DNA from: Collinsella aerofaciens
GTDB lineage: Bacteria > Actinomycetota > Coriobacteriia > Coriobacteriales > Coriobacteriaceae
DNA: 64,000 nt
Assembly (NCBI RefSeq): GCF_005844325.1
Contig: NZ_SPFY01000005.1
Span: 1 to 64,000, forward strand
Direction of reading: 5' to 3'
Below, piece by piece: positions 18,820 to 63,721 of the stretch (positions are counted from its first letter, which is position 1; the number at the start of each line of letters is the position of its first letter). A program made the position numbers and the translations under genes. The notes beneath the pieces are model-generated. The model saw only the letters and a list, made by a program, of their open reading frames with translations. It had not been told where the DNA came from and made no database searches.

Positions 18820-19168
18820 CAAGCTGCCCCTCACCATGTCCACTACCCTGCCTTCTGTGTCGTATACGATCCGTGCGTTGCGCGGAATATCAGGTTGTTC
18901 CCACCAGCTGACCTGGTATTTGACCCCACACTTGCGCACCGGGGTGTTTGCTCGGGAGGCCGCAGCCACCTTCACGACTGACCCGCTCGCCCGCGAGGCG
19001 GTATTGCCCCAAAGAAAGTAGAACGGACGGTGCGGCTTACATCTAGGACGCGCCATGATCGCGCCGCGCGCACGCGGTCGCTTACGTGGATCCCTTTGAC
19101 CGCGTCTGTCTTGGACTAGGACGGGCATTTCGTCCGTCCGCAACCACAGCCTGGTAGGAACGAAGCGC
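18820..19168 (-). promoter_or_regulatory. Long structured 5' leader of the lipoprotein gene
   Basis: About 340 nt separate the promoter at 19169-19197 from the lipoprotein start. The transcript has local hairpins, for example GGACGG/CCGTCC and ACGCGGTC/GACCGCGT within its first 110 nt. The lipoprotein frame stays open through the leader and could encode an N-terminal extension from an ATG near 19056, but a lipobox 90 residues inside a protein would be abnormal. It may be a riboswitch-like leader or a separate small RNA; I could not match it to a known class. Confidence 0.45.
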
Positions 19169-19266: not shown

Positions 19267-19317
19267 AAGCCCGGAGCTCCCCTACGGGGAGCTCCGGGGC
19301 ACCCGTCTCAGGGTGCC
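19267..19317. terminator. Tandem strong hairpins
   Basis: CCCGGAGCTCCCC (19270-19282) pairs perfectly with GGGGAGCTCCGGG (19286-19298), followed by GGCACCC (19298-19304) with GGGTGCC (19311-19317). No good T-run is present. They lie between the lipoprotein promoter and the MITE-like element and could insulate the two. Confidence 0.55.
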
Positions 19318-19318
19318 G

Positions 19319-19535
19319 TGTGCAAAAAACGGCAAATATGAGTACTGTTACCAATTTAGTAGCAGCGTATTACCGCCTCACGAGCCCTTTTTGAGTTCCG
19401 CACAGCCTGCTTGGCGCCAAGATATTCCACATTCGTTTATTATCTCTTCGCTGAATCCAGATTATCGGCCCAAGTTTCTTTGTTTTTGCTGTCACTAATC
19501 TAGTAACAGTACTCATATTTGCCGTTTTTTGCACA
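19319..19535. mobile_element. MITE-like element with 33-bp perfect terminal inverted repeats
   Basis: Positions 19319-19351 and 19503-19535 are perfect inverted copies of each other (33 bp; the outer part reads TGTGCAAAAAACGGC). Partial complementarity continues another 10-12 bp inward. The 150 bp between them is AT-rich, unlike its surroundings, and encodes nothing. No clear target duplication is visible. Size, perfect ends and lack of coding capacity fit a miniature inverted-repeat transposable element moved by a transposase encoded elsewhere. It sits directly downstream of the gene at 19571-20680. Confidence 0.75.
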
Positions 19536-19570
19536 GAGCATATAAACAGACCCCCTATAAAGCCATAGTT

Positions 19571-43535: not shown

Positions 43536-43558
43536 TTCGCACCAACAACCCAAACGCA

Positions 43559-43598
43559 ACAAGGGGCTCCCCCGTTCACCAACGGGGGAGCCCCTTGT
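43559..43598 (+). terminator. Terminator after manA
   Basis: An 18-bp perfect inverted repeat (43559-43576 with 43581-43598, core GGGGCTCCCCCGTT) with a 4-nt loop and a weak T-run. Strong hairpin between convergent manA and pcrA. Confidence 0.8.
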
Positions 43599-43677
43599 CC
43601 ATATATATCAGCCCACCCGGCTCTCCAGACCAAAAAGCGAACGAGCAAAGCAACGCTCGTCTAGCAACGTTACCCAA

Positions 43678-46919: not shown

Positions 46920-46956
46920 AATCACAGAGCCACCGATGTCACGGTAGCAGCAGCGA

Positions 46957-47056
46957 GCGGCGGCCAGAGCGAACAAATTGGCATGAAAAGAGGGCGGCAT
47001 AGACCTTTTGGTCATGCCGCCCTCTTTGAATGACAAGTTGTCGCTCTGGCCGCCGC
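46957..47056. repeat. Nested stem-loop element B
   Basis: GCGGCGGCCAGAGCGA (46957-46972) pairs perfectly with TCGCTCTGGCCGCCGC (47041-47056). Inside, AAAGAGGGCGGCAT (46987-47000) pairs with ATGCCGCCCTCTTT (47014-47027), with ACC/GGT at the tip. On the minus strand the inner hairpin is followed by TTTT, so it can terminate uppP, whose stop is 16 nt away. Same layout as elements A and C, different sequence. Confidence 0.8.
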
Positions 47057-47071
47057 GCAGCGTCAACCAAG

Positions 47072-48052
47072 TTACAGGCCGAGCATAGGCTCCAGAACGA
47101 AGAAGTATGCGAGCACTACGACGCCCAGGATGATGCGGTAAACACCGAAGCACTTGAAGTCGTGACGGCGGACGAAGCCCATGAGCCACTTGATGGCGAT
47201 GAGCGAAACCACAAAGGCCACAACGCAGCCCACGCCCAAGATAGCGACCTCGTTGGCGCCGAACGTGCCGCCCTTGATGAAGTATTTGACCAGCTTGAGT
47301 GCACTCGCGCCAAACATGACAGGGATGGCCAGGAAGAACGTAAACTTGGACGCCACCGAACGCGTACAGCCCAAAAGCAGGCCGCCGATGATGGTAGAAC
47401 CGGAGCGAGACGTACCAGGCACCAGCGAAAGCACCTGGAAGCAGCCGATACCCAGCGCAGTCTTCCAGCTCAGGTCCTCGAGCGTGGCGATGGAGCCAAA
47501 GTCCAGATTCTCGTCATCGTCCTCATCCTCAGCGGTAGCCGCGGCGGGCGCCGCAAAGTGCGCACCGGCGGGACGTCCACCCGACACCACAGCACGCGAG
47601 CCAAACGAACCGGCAACGGCCATTTCCTCGCGCTTGCTCGCGCGCCAGTTCTCGATCACGATAAACAGCACGCCGTACACAATGAGCGCCAGCGCCACGA
47701 CGGGAGCATTGTAGAAATGCTCCTCCATCCAGTCGTTAAGCGGCAGACCGATCGCCGCGGCGGGAATGCAGCCGAGCACAATCTTGCCCCACAGCACCCA
47801 GGTGTCGCGACGGCCCTCCTTGCCCTTGCTGGGCGAGAACGGATTGAGCTCATGGAAGAACAGCACACAGACGGCCAGAATGGCGCCGAGCTGAATCACG
47901 ACCAGGAACATATTCCAGAACGTCTCGCTCACGTTCATCTTGACGAACTCGTCCACCAAGATCATGTGACCGGTCGACGAAACAGGCAGCCATTCGGTGA
48001 TGCCCTCGACCAGGCCCATGAAGGCAGATTTTAGAAGCTCGATAATATCCAA
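47072..48052 (-). CDS. uppP: Undecaprenyl-diphosphatase UppP
   Basis: A 326-residue BacA/UppP membrane phosphatase that recycles undecaprenyl phosphate for cell-wall synthesis and gives bacitracin resistance. LDIIELLKSAFMGLVEGITEWLPVSSTGHMILVDEF with the catalytic E-x-x-x-E and PVSSTGH, and SLVPGTSRSGSTIIGGLLLG near 225 are the two signatures. I favour the TTG at 48052 (6 nt after AGGGGG) because it gives the family's usual N-terminus; a GTG at 48073 is possible. A cytoplasmic loop (residues about 150-195) has a longer than usual Ala-rich and acidic insertion (EDEDDDENLD). Confidence 0.92.
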   Translation of the reverse strand: MDIIELLKSAFMGLVEGITEWLPVSSTGHMILVDEFVKMNVSETFWNMFLVVIQLGAILAVCVLFFHELNPFSPSKGKEGRRDTWVLWGKIVLGCIPAAAIGLPLNDWMEEHFYNAPVVALALIVYGVLFIVIENWRASKREEMAVAGSFGSRAVVSGGRPAGAHFAAPAAATAEDEDDDENLDFGSIATLEDLSWKTALGIGCFQVLSLVPGTSRSGSTIIGGLLLGCTRSVASKFTFFLAIPVMFGASALKLVKYFIKGGTFGANEVAILGVGCVVAFVVSLIAIKWLMGFVRRHDFKCFGVYRIILGVVVLAYFFVLEPMLGL

Positions 48053-53079: not shown

Positions 53080-53195
53080 GGTCATACCTTTCGTGTTAGT
53101 CATTCCGTCCTCTTATACCAAAAAGACGGCCCTCCAAACGGAGCAGCCGTCTTTTGCAGAGATTATTTTGACGATACGGTCAGGCGACCGATCGG

Positions 53196-53225
53196 CTTAA
53201 TGGGATAGAACAACATCCCATTAAG
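53196..53225. repeat. 11-bp perfect hairpin beside element C
   Basis: CTTAATGGGAT (53196-53206) pairs with ATCCCATTAAG (53215-53225) around AGAACAAC. It directly adjoins nested element C on the purH-downstream side. Confidence 0.7.
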
Positions 53226-53322
53226 GGTTTTCCAAGTGCCCGAGATTGCCCCGAAAGAGGAGCGCCGCGTACTAAATGTACGCAAGCGACGGTTTGAGGG
53301 GCAAGGTCGGGTGCTTGGGAAA
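53226..53322. repeat. Nested stem-loop element C
   Basis: TTTTCCAAGTGCCCGAGATTGCCCC (from 53228) pairs, with a few mismatches, with GGGGCAAGGTCGGGTGC and TTGGGAAAG up to 53322. The loop contains GCGTAC/GTACGC around TAAAT (about 53267-53283). It starts 5 nt after the purH stop. Same layout as A and B. Confidence 0.75.
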
Positions 53323-53326
53323 GCCT

Positions 53327-54934
53327 CTAGTGCCTAAAATGCCTGGCCCCTGTGAAGACCATCGCAATACCATGCTCGTTGCAGGCCTGGACGCTCTCGT
53401 CGTCGCGCTTGGAGCCGCCGGGCTGGATGATGCAGGTCACGCCGTGCGCGGCGAGCACGTCGACGTTGTCGCGGAACGGGAAGAACGCGTCGCTTGCACA
53501 GGCAAAGCCGCCCTTCTCCACGCCCTCGCGCTCGCAGAAGTCCTCGGCGCGCTCGCAGGCAAGCAGCGCAGAGTCAACGCGGTTGGGCTGACCCGGGCCC
53601 ATGCCAATGCCGGCCTTACCCTTGGAAACCAGGATGGCGTTGGACTTGACGCCCTTGCAGACCTTCCAGGCAAACTCGAGCTCGGCCATCTCGGCGTCGG
53701 TGGGCTTGCGGTCGGTGGGGAACGTAAAGGTCGCAGGATCCTCGGTCACGTGGTCGACCTCCTGCACCAGCATGCCGCCGTCGACGGAGCGCAGCTCCAC
53801 CTGGGCGCCGTGGTCCACGCCGCCGGTGGCCAGCACGCGCAGGTTGGGGCGCTTGGCCATGCGCTCGAGCGCCTCGGCAGTGTAGCTCGGAGCGATGATA
53901 ACCTCGACGAACTGCTTGTTCTGATCGGCAAAGTGCTCAACCAGCTCATAGGGAACCTCGCGGTTGCAGGCGATGATGCCGCCGAAGGCGCTCTTGGGAT
54001 CGCAGGCGAAGGCGCGGTCGTAGGCGGCCGTGATGTCCTCGGCCACGGCGGAGCCGCAGGGGTTCTGATGCTTGAGGATCACGCAGGCCGGCTCGTCGAA
54101 CTCGCGGACTAGGTTCCAAGCGGCGTCGGCATCCAGATAGTTGTTGTAGCTGAGCGGCTTGCCCTGGATCTGCTCGGAGCCCACGAGCGGGAACTGCGAG
54201 CTCGCGGTATTCTCGCAGCCCTCGGCAAAGCGATAGACCGTGGCCTTCTGCTGAGGATTCTCGCCATAGCGCAGGTCGTCGACCTTCTCCAGCGAGATCT
54301 CGAGCTTGGCAGAGGTGTCCGCCACGTCGCTTGCGTGGGCGGCGAGCCAACGGGAGATAGCCGTGTCGTAGGCGGCGGTGGTCTGGTAGACCTTCACCTG
54401 CAGGCGACGACGGGTGGAAAGCGTGGTGCAGCCACCGGTCTCGCGCATCTCGGCCAGGACGGCATCATAGTCGGCCGGGTCGGAGATGACGGTAACGCTC
54501 GCGGCGTTCTTGGCGGCAGAGCGCAGCATGGAAGGACCGCCGATGTCGATGTGCTCGATGGCATCCGCGAAGGTGACCTCGGGGTTGGCGACGGTCTTCT
54601 CGAACTCGTACAGGTTGACGACGACCAGGTCGATCAGCTTAATGCCGTGCTGTGCCGCCTCCTGCATGTGCTGCTCGGAATCGCGGCGGGCCAGCAGCGC
54701 GCCGTGAACCTTGGGGTGCAGGGTCTTAACGCGGCCGTCCATCATCTCGGGATAGCCCGTGAACTCCTCGATGGGGGTTACGGGGACGCCCGCGTCCTCG
54801 ATGGCACGAGCCGTGCCGCCCGTAGAGATGATCTCGACGCCAAAGTCATCGACCAGCGTCCGTGCGAAATCGACGACGCCCGTCTTATCGGTAACCGAAA
54901 TCAACGCGCGTGCGATCTTCACATCAGATCCCAT
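53327..54934 (-). CDS. purH: Bifunctional AICAR transformylase / IMP cyclohydrolase
   Basis: A 535-residue enzyme for the last two steps of IMP synthesis. The N-terminal IMP cyclohydrolase (MGS-like) domain has ALISVTDKTGVVDFARTL, IISTGGTARAIEDAGVPVTPIEEFTGYPEMMDGRVKTLHPKVHGALLARR; the AICARFT domain shows LRYGENPQQKATVYR near 217, ILKHQNPCGSAVAEDITAAYDRAFACDPKSAFGGIIACN near 286-325 (catalytic Lys-His) and a C-terminus ending VFTGARHFRH. Length matches the family. Confidence 0.96.
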   Translation of the reverse strand: MGSDVKIARALISVTDKTGVVDFARTLVDDFGVEIISTGGTARAIEDAGVPVTPIEEFTGYPEMMDGRVKTLHPKVHGALLARRDSEQHMQEAAQHGIKLIDLVVVNLYEFEKTVANPEVTFADAIEHIDIGGPSMLRSAAKNAASVTVISDPADYDAVLAEMRETGGCTTLSTRRRLQVKVYQTTAAYDTAISRWLAAHASDVADTSAKLEISLEKVDDLRYGENPQQKATVYRFAEGCENTASSQFPLVGSEQIQGKPLSYNNYLDADAAWNLVREFDEPACVILKHQNPCGSAVAEDITAAYDRAFACDPKSAFGGIIACNREVPYELVEHFADQNKQFVEVIIAPSYTAEALERMAKRPNLRVLATGGVDHGAQVELRSVDGGMLVQEVDHVTEDPATFTFPTDRKPTDAEMAELEFAWKVCKGVKSNAILVSKGKAGIGMGPGQPNRVDSALLACERAEDFCEREGVEKGGFACASDAFFPFRDNVDVLAAHGVTCIIQPGGSKRDDESVQACNEHGIAMVFTGARHFRH

Positions 54935-63487: not shown

Positions 63488-63504
63488 GAAGCCCCCTCGT
63501 GAAT

Positions 63505-63686
63505 CGAAGGTGAATGCTTTTCCGCGAAGTGAACGACCTATTTTGGACCCCCGAAGCATCCGCACTTTTTGGCGCCAAACCCGCAGGAAATACCTGACAA
63601 AACCGCAGGAAAGAGCGACGTAAAAGTGTCGATGCTCCAGGGGTTCGATTTCACTCGTTCACTTCGCGGAAAACCATTCACCTTCG
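63505..63686. repeat. Long interrupted inverted-repeat element
   Basis: Positions 63505-63536 and 63654-63686 are near-perfect inverted arms (CGAAGGTGAATG ... CCGCGAAGTGAACGA). A second inner pair (CCCC...AGCATC...ACTTTT with AAAAGT...GATGCT...GGGG) extends the fold, and CCGCAGGAAA is directly repeated in the loop (63581, 63603). Looks like a MITE or a large RNA fold; nothing is encoded. Confidence 0.65.
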
Positions 63687-63721
63687 TTTTACGGCAGCCC
63701 GTCAGTCACCCTCTCGGCATT

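Follow-up and report, generated by a model that had tools for sequence, protein, structure and literature searches.

The nested stem-loop that directly follows purH in Collinsella aerofaciens is regarded here, with a probability of about 0.5, as one copy of a small, non-autonomous family of mobile palindromes in Coriobacteriia, which strongly prefers the 3' ends of genes and probably acts as folded single-stranded DNA. The observations behind this reading are the dispersal of numerous copies, orthologous sites that either hold or lack the element, a co-varying hairpin that is strand-polar, and a start at stop codons in antisense to the host gene.

The element behind purH

The initial annotation of the window, which is the whole stretch of 64,000 nt analysed in the present study, had placed a nested stem-loop 5 nt after the purH stop codon. 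The stem-loop was confirmed at 53224-53326, with a fold of -78.7 kcal/mol for 53180-53340 against a shuffled mean of -47.9 (z -7.13, equalled by 0 of 200 shuffles), and the covariance model matched this copy at 53222-53328 with 118 bits. The gap to the gene is in fact 0 nt, the outermost pair (53326) lying immediately before the stop codon at 53327-53329. The features are as follows, with the evidence in brackets.

53224-53326, plus (better-folding) strand: main element, type I, a three-level imperfect hairpin (fold, covariance model, covariation)
53224-53243, plus strand: outer 5' arm, partner of 53307-53326, with a conserved tandem G.U/U.G wobble, GTGCC / GGTGC (fold, alignment)
53244-53245, plus strand: conserved purine mismatch, GA opposite GG at 53305-53306 (alignment, sequence)
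53246-53252, plus strand: inner arm, paired with the other inner arm at 53298-53304 (fold)
53253-53262, plus strand: conserved GAAAGAGGAG, opposite CGACGGTTTGA at 53287-53297 (alignment)
about 53263-53288, plus strand: central hairpin (fold)
53307-53326, plus strand: outer 3' arm, touching the purH stop codon (fold, sequence)
53327-54934, minus strand: purH, the host gene, 535 aa, with its TAG stop at 53327-53329 (30 orthologous loci compared)
53196-53225, no strand assigned: perfect hairpin beside the element, 11 bp with an 8-nt loop (sequence, fold)
53121-53156, minus strand: intrinsic terminator-like hairpin with a U-run, downstream of purH (read from the sequence)
46954-47059, plus strand: the window's other family copy, of type III and 12 nt away from the stop of a minus-strand gene ending at 47072 (covariance model)

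In many copies, the region of GAAAGAGGAG and CGACGGTTTGA consists of tandem G.A mismatches split by Watson-Crick pairs. The extra perfect hairpin that had been described beside the stem-loop is present at 53196-53225, and a similar adjacent hairpin occurs in other type I purH alleles and is missing from element-free ones, but it lies outside the conserved element and is no part of it. Three like elements had been listed in the window; the element is indeed recurrent, but the only other nested stem to match the family was that at 46954-47059, which was found in 12 of 12 orthologous loci read, truncated in some.

Two long inverted repeats of the window, 19314-19540 and 63498-63693, gave no model match and fall to other repeat families. 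The former has 53-nt arms (87%), and these arms, TGCCGTTTTTTGCACA...GAGTACTGTTAC, recur as pairs at about five places in the genome at least, which from their sequence suggests another repeat or MITE-like family. The latter lies behind a gene, has 72-nt arms (81%) and has one relative elsewhere in the genome with 77% identity. The window also holds a raiA RNA family match on the minus strand at 18899-19159 (149.5 bits) and a match to Rfam Ref55 at 43557-43609, a strong terminator-type hairpin.

Copies, types and distribution

A DNA search of the same genome with the element returned ten strong matches, and the covariance model gave about 28 sites in the C. aerofaciens genome studied, which is put at about 30 dispersed copies, and roughly 15-38 in most congeners and 0-7 in others, the relatives being species representatives. 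The family was matched in 74 of the 199 Coriobacteriia genomes searched; in a pattern scan of named genomes, only Collinsella, Atopobiaceae, Olsenella, an uncultured Coriobacteriaceae and Candidatus Limicola appeared among the matches listed. No covariance model of Rfam 15 exceeded its gathering score on the element, phage records and viral contigs held no family copy, and the sole match in plasmid records was a C. aerofaciens replicon of 900 kb.

Type I, to which the purH copy belongs, consists of just the main hairpin; in type II this is joined by a short hairpin on the 5' side and by a tail of AGCGTCGAGCCGTTACGCGG, a hairpin and CGTAAC, and type III is distinguished by a long, nearly perfect inner stem. 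Three genomes (G126, G130 and G143) are called Eggerthellaceae-like by guess, the assignment given being the same order, family f2, and copies in such genomes are full units of the form GTCAGCGAG-main-CGCAGCGTCG-GTTCCG..CGGAAC. At one locus (L028 1501-1606), the outer stem takes in the final 15 nt of the host gene with its stop codon, and the far arm is a near complement of them, which suggests, as far as the sequence can be read, either that the stem was lengthened by copying or that the element inserted into a hairpin.

Conserved fold and strand polarity

In a consensus alignment of twelve copies from the same genome, 22 of the 35 pairs of the consensus fold showed compensatory changes. All covariation measures lay beyond 500 shuffles (0/500 as good) and well above slid controls, and arm-to-arm correction at quasi-palindromes may account for part of this covariation.

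Both strands of the element still fold strongly. Among 84 distinct copies, the modelled strand has 725 mismatches of the purine-purine kind and 14 of the pyrimidine-pyrimidine kind, 242 G.T against 83 A.C, and 137 tandem GA/AG steps. Mismatches of the stable type are thus a feature of one strand only, which because of this polarity is taken to be the folding strand. The apparent conserved loops are largely runs of tandem G.A mismatches (5'-GA AA GA G GA G / C GA C GA TT GA), and in one copy (L008, identical to L026) this pattern, read by eye, is kept while the surrounding pairs have changed. Strand-polar mismatches say that one folded strand is seen by selection or by a mobilising enzyme.

Placement and orientation relative to stop codons

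In the C. aerofaciens genome studied, nearly every copy begins at a stop codon with its folding strand antisense to the gene, at 0-4 nt for type I, 12-13 nt for some copies and 38-41 nt for type II, the last gap being the length of the tail hairpin. Since orthologous copies are not independent, host genes were reduced to 26 distinct ones. By simple gene calls, 14 of them have the main edge no more than 7 nt from the stop (P 3e-12), where 5% would be expected from the share of intergenic positions at most 7 nt behind a stop in the same genus, and it lies 35-41 nt away in seven; in the copies of this second class that were read by hand within this genome, the tail hairpin itself begins at the stop. 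The association with stop codons, which the initial annotation had proposed to compare with chance, is thus well above it. Avoidance of TGA stops at host genes was also considered and was not significant (2/26, P 0.26).

On named contigs, an antisense gene lies in front of 63 of 71 copies, again by simple gene calls, and at least some of the eight copies in the opposite orientation come from one orthologous site. The orientation was antisense at 30/30 in two Eggerthellaceae-like genomes by a Markov frame call. One RefSeq record has the cysS stop codon 7 nt from an unannotated copy, and another copy in the same record is oppositely oriented.

A new mRNA 3' structure was one of the readings initially offered, and a functional RNA that stabilises mRNA 3' ends or acts as a bidirectional terminator or insulator, selected at gene ends and spread by recombination or gene conversion, would agree with copies lying directly behind stop codons, mostly between same-strand genes, with the strong fold of both strands, with a central loop for which C[TTCG]G is the commonest form across the mixed copy set, and with one copy (L035) behind an RNA gene read as rnpB. 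In most copies, nevertheless, the better-folding, mismatch-bearing strand runs antisense to the host gene, i.e. it is not the mRNA strand, and an mRNA role is disfavoured for this reason. Copies also range from 0 to about 40 between species, and no T-run follows the element, as an intrinsic terminator, a GC stem with a U-run after it in the gene's RNA, would require. Moreover, the separate terminator-like hairpin of purH is retained in alleles both with and without the element. We consider a functional RNA unlikely as the explanation of the family.

Replication direction

In the three Eggerthellaceae-like genomes, each of which is a single contig, the leading-strand template carries the folding strand at 103 of 109 sites, with the origin side taken from dnaA at the contig start for G126 and from GC skew for G130 and G143. 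Coding bias in these genomes is about 80% by the Markov frame call, which replaced a first estimate from long ORFs for GC-rich genomes, and the polarity therefore follows mostly from gene orientation, the excess over this bias having a P of 2e-5. In a Collinsella genome (G060), 17 of 20 sites are replichore-polar and the three exceptions still obey gene orientation. Replication direction was rejected as the main cause of orientation in view of these exceptions, and because the genes obey as well in the Eggerthellaceae-like genomes (30/30), it is a second factor at most. The bias towards the leading-strand template beyond gene orientation is possibly an extra retention effect; the attC bottom strands of chromosomal integrons have the same preference, and in most sedentary integrons the folding strand is likewise placed on the leading-strand template, which limits excision (PMC5371416).

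This last parallel would also suit an explanation by selection only, in which insertion is random and survival is limited to copies that directly follow a stop codon and keep the stronger hairpin out of the mRNA. The gaps between bacterial genes are small, with a median of 92 nt, and strong hairpins in the mRNA between operon genes may be harmful. However, insertions 10-80 nt behind a stop would be equally tolerable and yet are rarer, the observed distances being grouped near 0 and near 38 nt; selection as the sole cause is accordingly given a low probability.

Turnover at orthologous sites

The initial proposal of a mobile palindrome family is supported by dispersed copies and element-free orthologous sites, which indicate mobility over evolutionary time. 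At the purH 3' site, a short spacer replaces the element in 10 of the 30 genomes read, while the present allele occurs in six, another element allele in five and a third in two; in one case (L128), two copies lie in tandem behind purH. Element-free orthologous sites were also found for three further genes (the L018 gene in L136/138-140/142, the L036 gene in L166-171 and the L024 gene in L177/179). Either gain or loss of the element may lie behind such differences.

One element-free site is the CTAG overlap of two convergent genes, and the filled allele has both stop codons; read from these alleles, a CTA(G) duplication is possible, and loss by slippage would look identical. This was the only locus with a possible duplication when a clear one was sought at orthologous loci, and insertion ends at other loci were not crisp, with 10-20 nt of replaced sequence. 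The proposal that the family targets terminators did not gain support, because the purH terminator lies further downstream and is kept without the element, and because the empty site just described is a CTAG overlap. At the orthologous site of another gene (L019; L144-L151), another element, oppositely oriented and enclosed in a terminator-like hairpin, is found in several genomes, and a single genome (L144) has two elements.

Comparison with known systems

Like REP and BIME sequences (GTAG and CGTC superfamilies; PMC2817692, PMC3733652), the element is a dispersed extragenic palindrome found mostly downstream of genes; CGTC REPs also occur without a known transposase, and type II units have CGTC near the tail hairpin. 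REPs are defined, however, as palindromes 20-40 bp long that end in a GTAG or CGTC tag (PMC3733652), whereas the element is a multi-level hairpin of 100-200 nt with polar purine mismatches, located at a stop codon in one orientation, and the type I main hairpin, of about 103 nt and with no terminal tag, was rejected as a REP by its form. Mobilisation of a REP/BIME-type repeat by a RAYT (Y1 tyrosine transposase) would be consistent with a palindromic, dispersed and extragenic element and with Y1 genes being present in most many-copy Collinsella and absent from several few-copy ones. It is made very improbable by the finding of 0 model matches within 3 kb of 20 Y1 genes, by two genomes (G126 and G130) with about 34-40 matches and no Y1_Tnp gene (PF01797), and by two Collinsella RAYTs that have GTAG-type REPs of their own. 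These RAYT-like genes, at L083 2745-3890 and L085 2730-3940, are flanked by the REPs (GTAGCTAATTTGGGACGGGGC...); in PMC2817692, RAYTs accompanied by REPs are reported from gammaproteobacteria alone.

Integron attC sites (PMC2727003, PMC5371416) resemble the element in that structure is conserved over sequence, one strand is apparently favoured by stem imperfections, the sites lie behind genes and the folding strand is mostly on the leading-strand template. The element differs in being dispersed behind core genes rather than arrayed with cassettes. Strand choice in attC is set by unpaired or extrahelical bases within a hairpin of conserved structure; in the element, strand-polar mismatches are present, and no R-box pair or extrahelical-base pattern was identified. 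A search of seven genomes for the integron integrase (TIGR02249) gave no match over the curated cut-off, the weak matches resembling ordinary tyrosine recombinases.

Hairpin ends and an orientation that follows replication are shared with IS200/IS605 (PMC5371812). In contrast to these insertion sequences, the element encodes no transposase, is present without Y1 genes and has its folding strand on the leading-strand template, whereas the transposed strand of IS200/IS605 is on the lagging-strand one; the folding strand of the element need not be its active strand. MITEs of the ERIC/NEMIS type are about 100-200 bp, foldable, non-coding and intergenic, as is the element, which differs from them by its fixed position and orientation at stop codons and by its strand-polar mismatches. 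A MITE would be expected to have a target-site duplication and to share terminal repeats with an autonomous transposon; one locus has the possible CTA(G) duplication, and no autonomous partner was found.

Proposed mechanism and implications

No transposase or recombinase linked to the element was found. Since the RAYT and integron routes fail their tests, we favour a palindrome mobilised in trans that acts as folded single-stranded DNA. The unit would move in this form and be recognised by its shape, the tandem G.A mismatches would mark the active strand, and the mobilising enzyme would be supplied in trans. Placement at gene 3' ends may result from single-stranded DNA that becomes exposed at the stop codon as ribosomes come off the transcript there or, alternatively, from stop-containing YTAR sequences serving as the target. 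The broader proposal of a class of shape-recognised, single-stranded mobile DNA that targets stop codons in one orientation, is coupled to the end of translation or transcription and is mobilised by a recombinase across Coriobacteriia is advanced tentatively, at odds well short of even.

Small palindromic repeats are common in general; to our knowledge, none has been described that sits so exactly at stop codons, keeps one orientation to the gene and has purine mismatches of a strand-polar kind, and the open-access literature on Collinsella and Eggerthella repeats and on insertion after stop codons held no description of the element. Its repeated settling at stop codons, almost always in one direction, suggests a previously undescribed kind of small mobile DNA. 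If this siting reflects insertion and not selection, the family would represent a natural case of mobile DNA that reads where a gene ends, and it would become testable what leaves the DNA after stop codons exposed. Closely related Collinsella species vary in their copies, which may therefore be relevant to the typing of strains and to regulation at 3' ends in these common gut bacteria.
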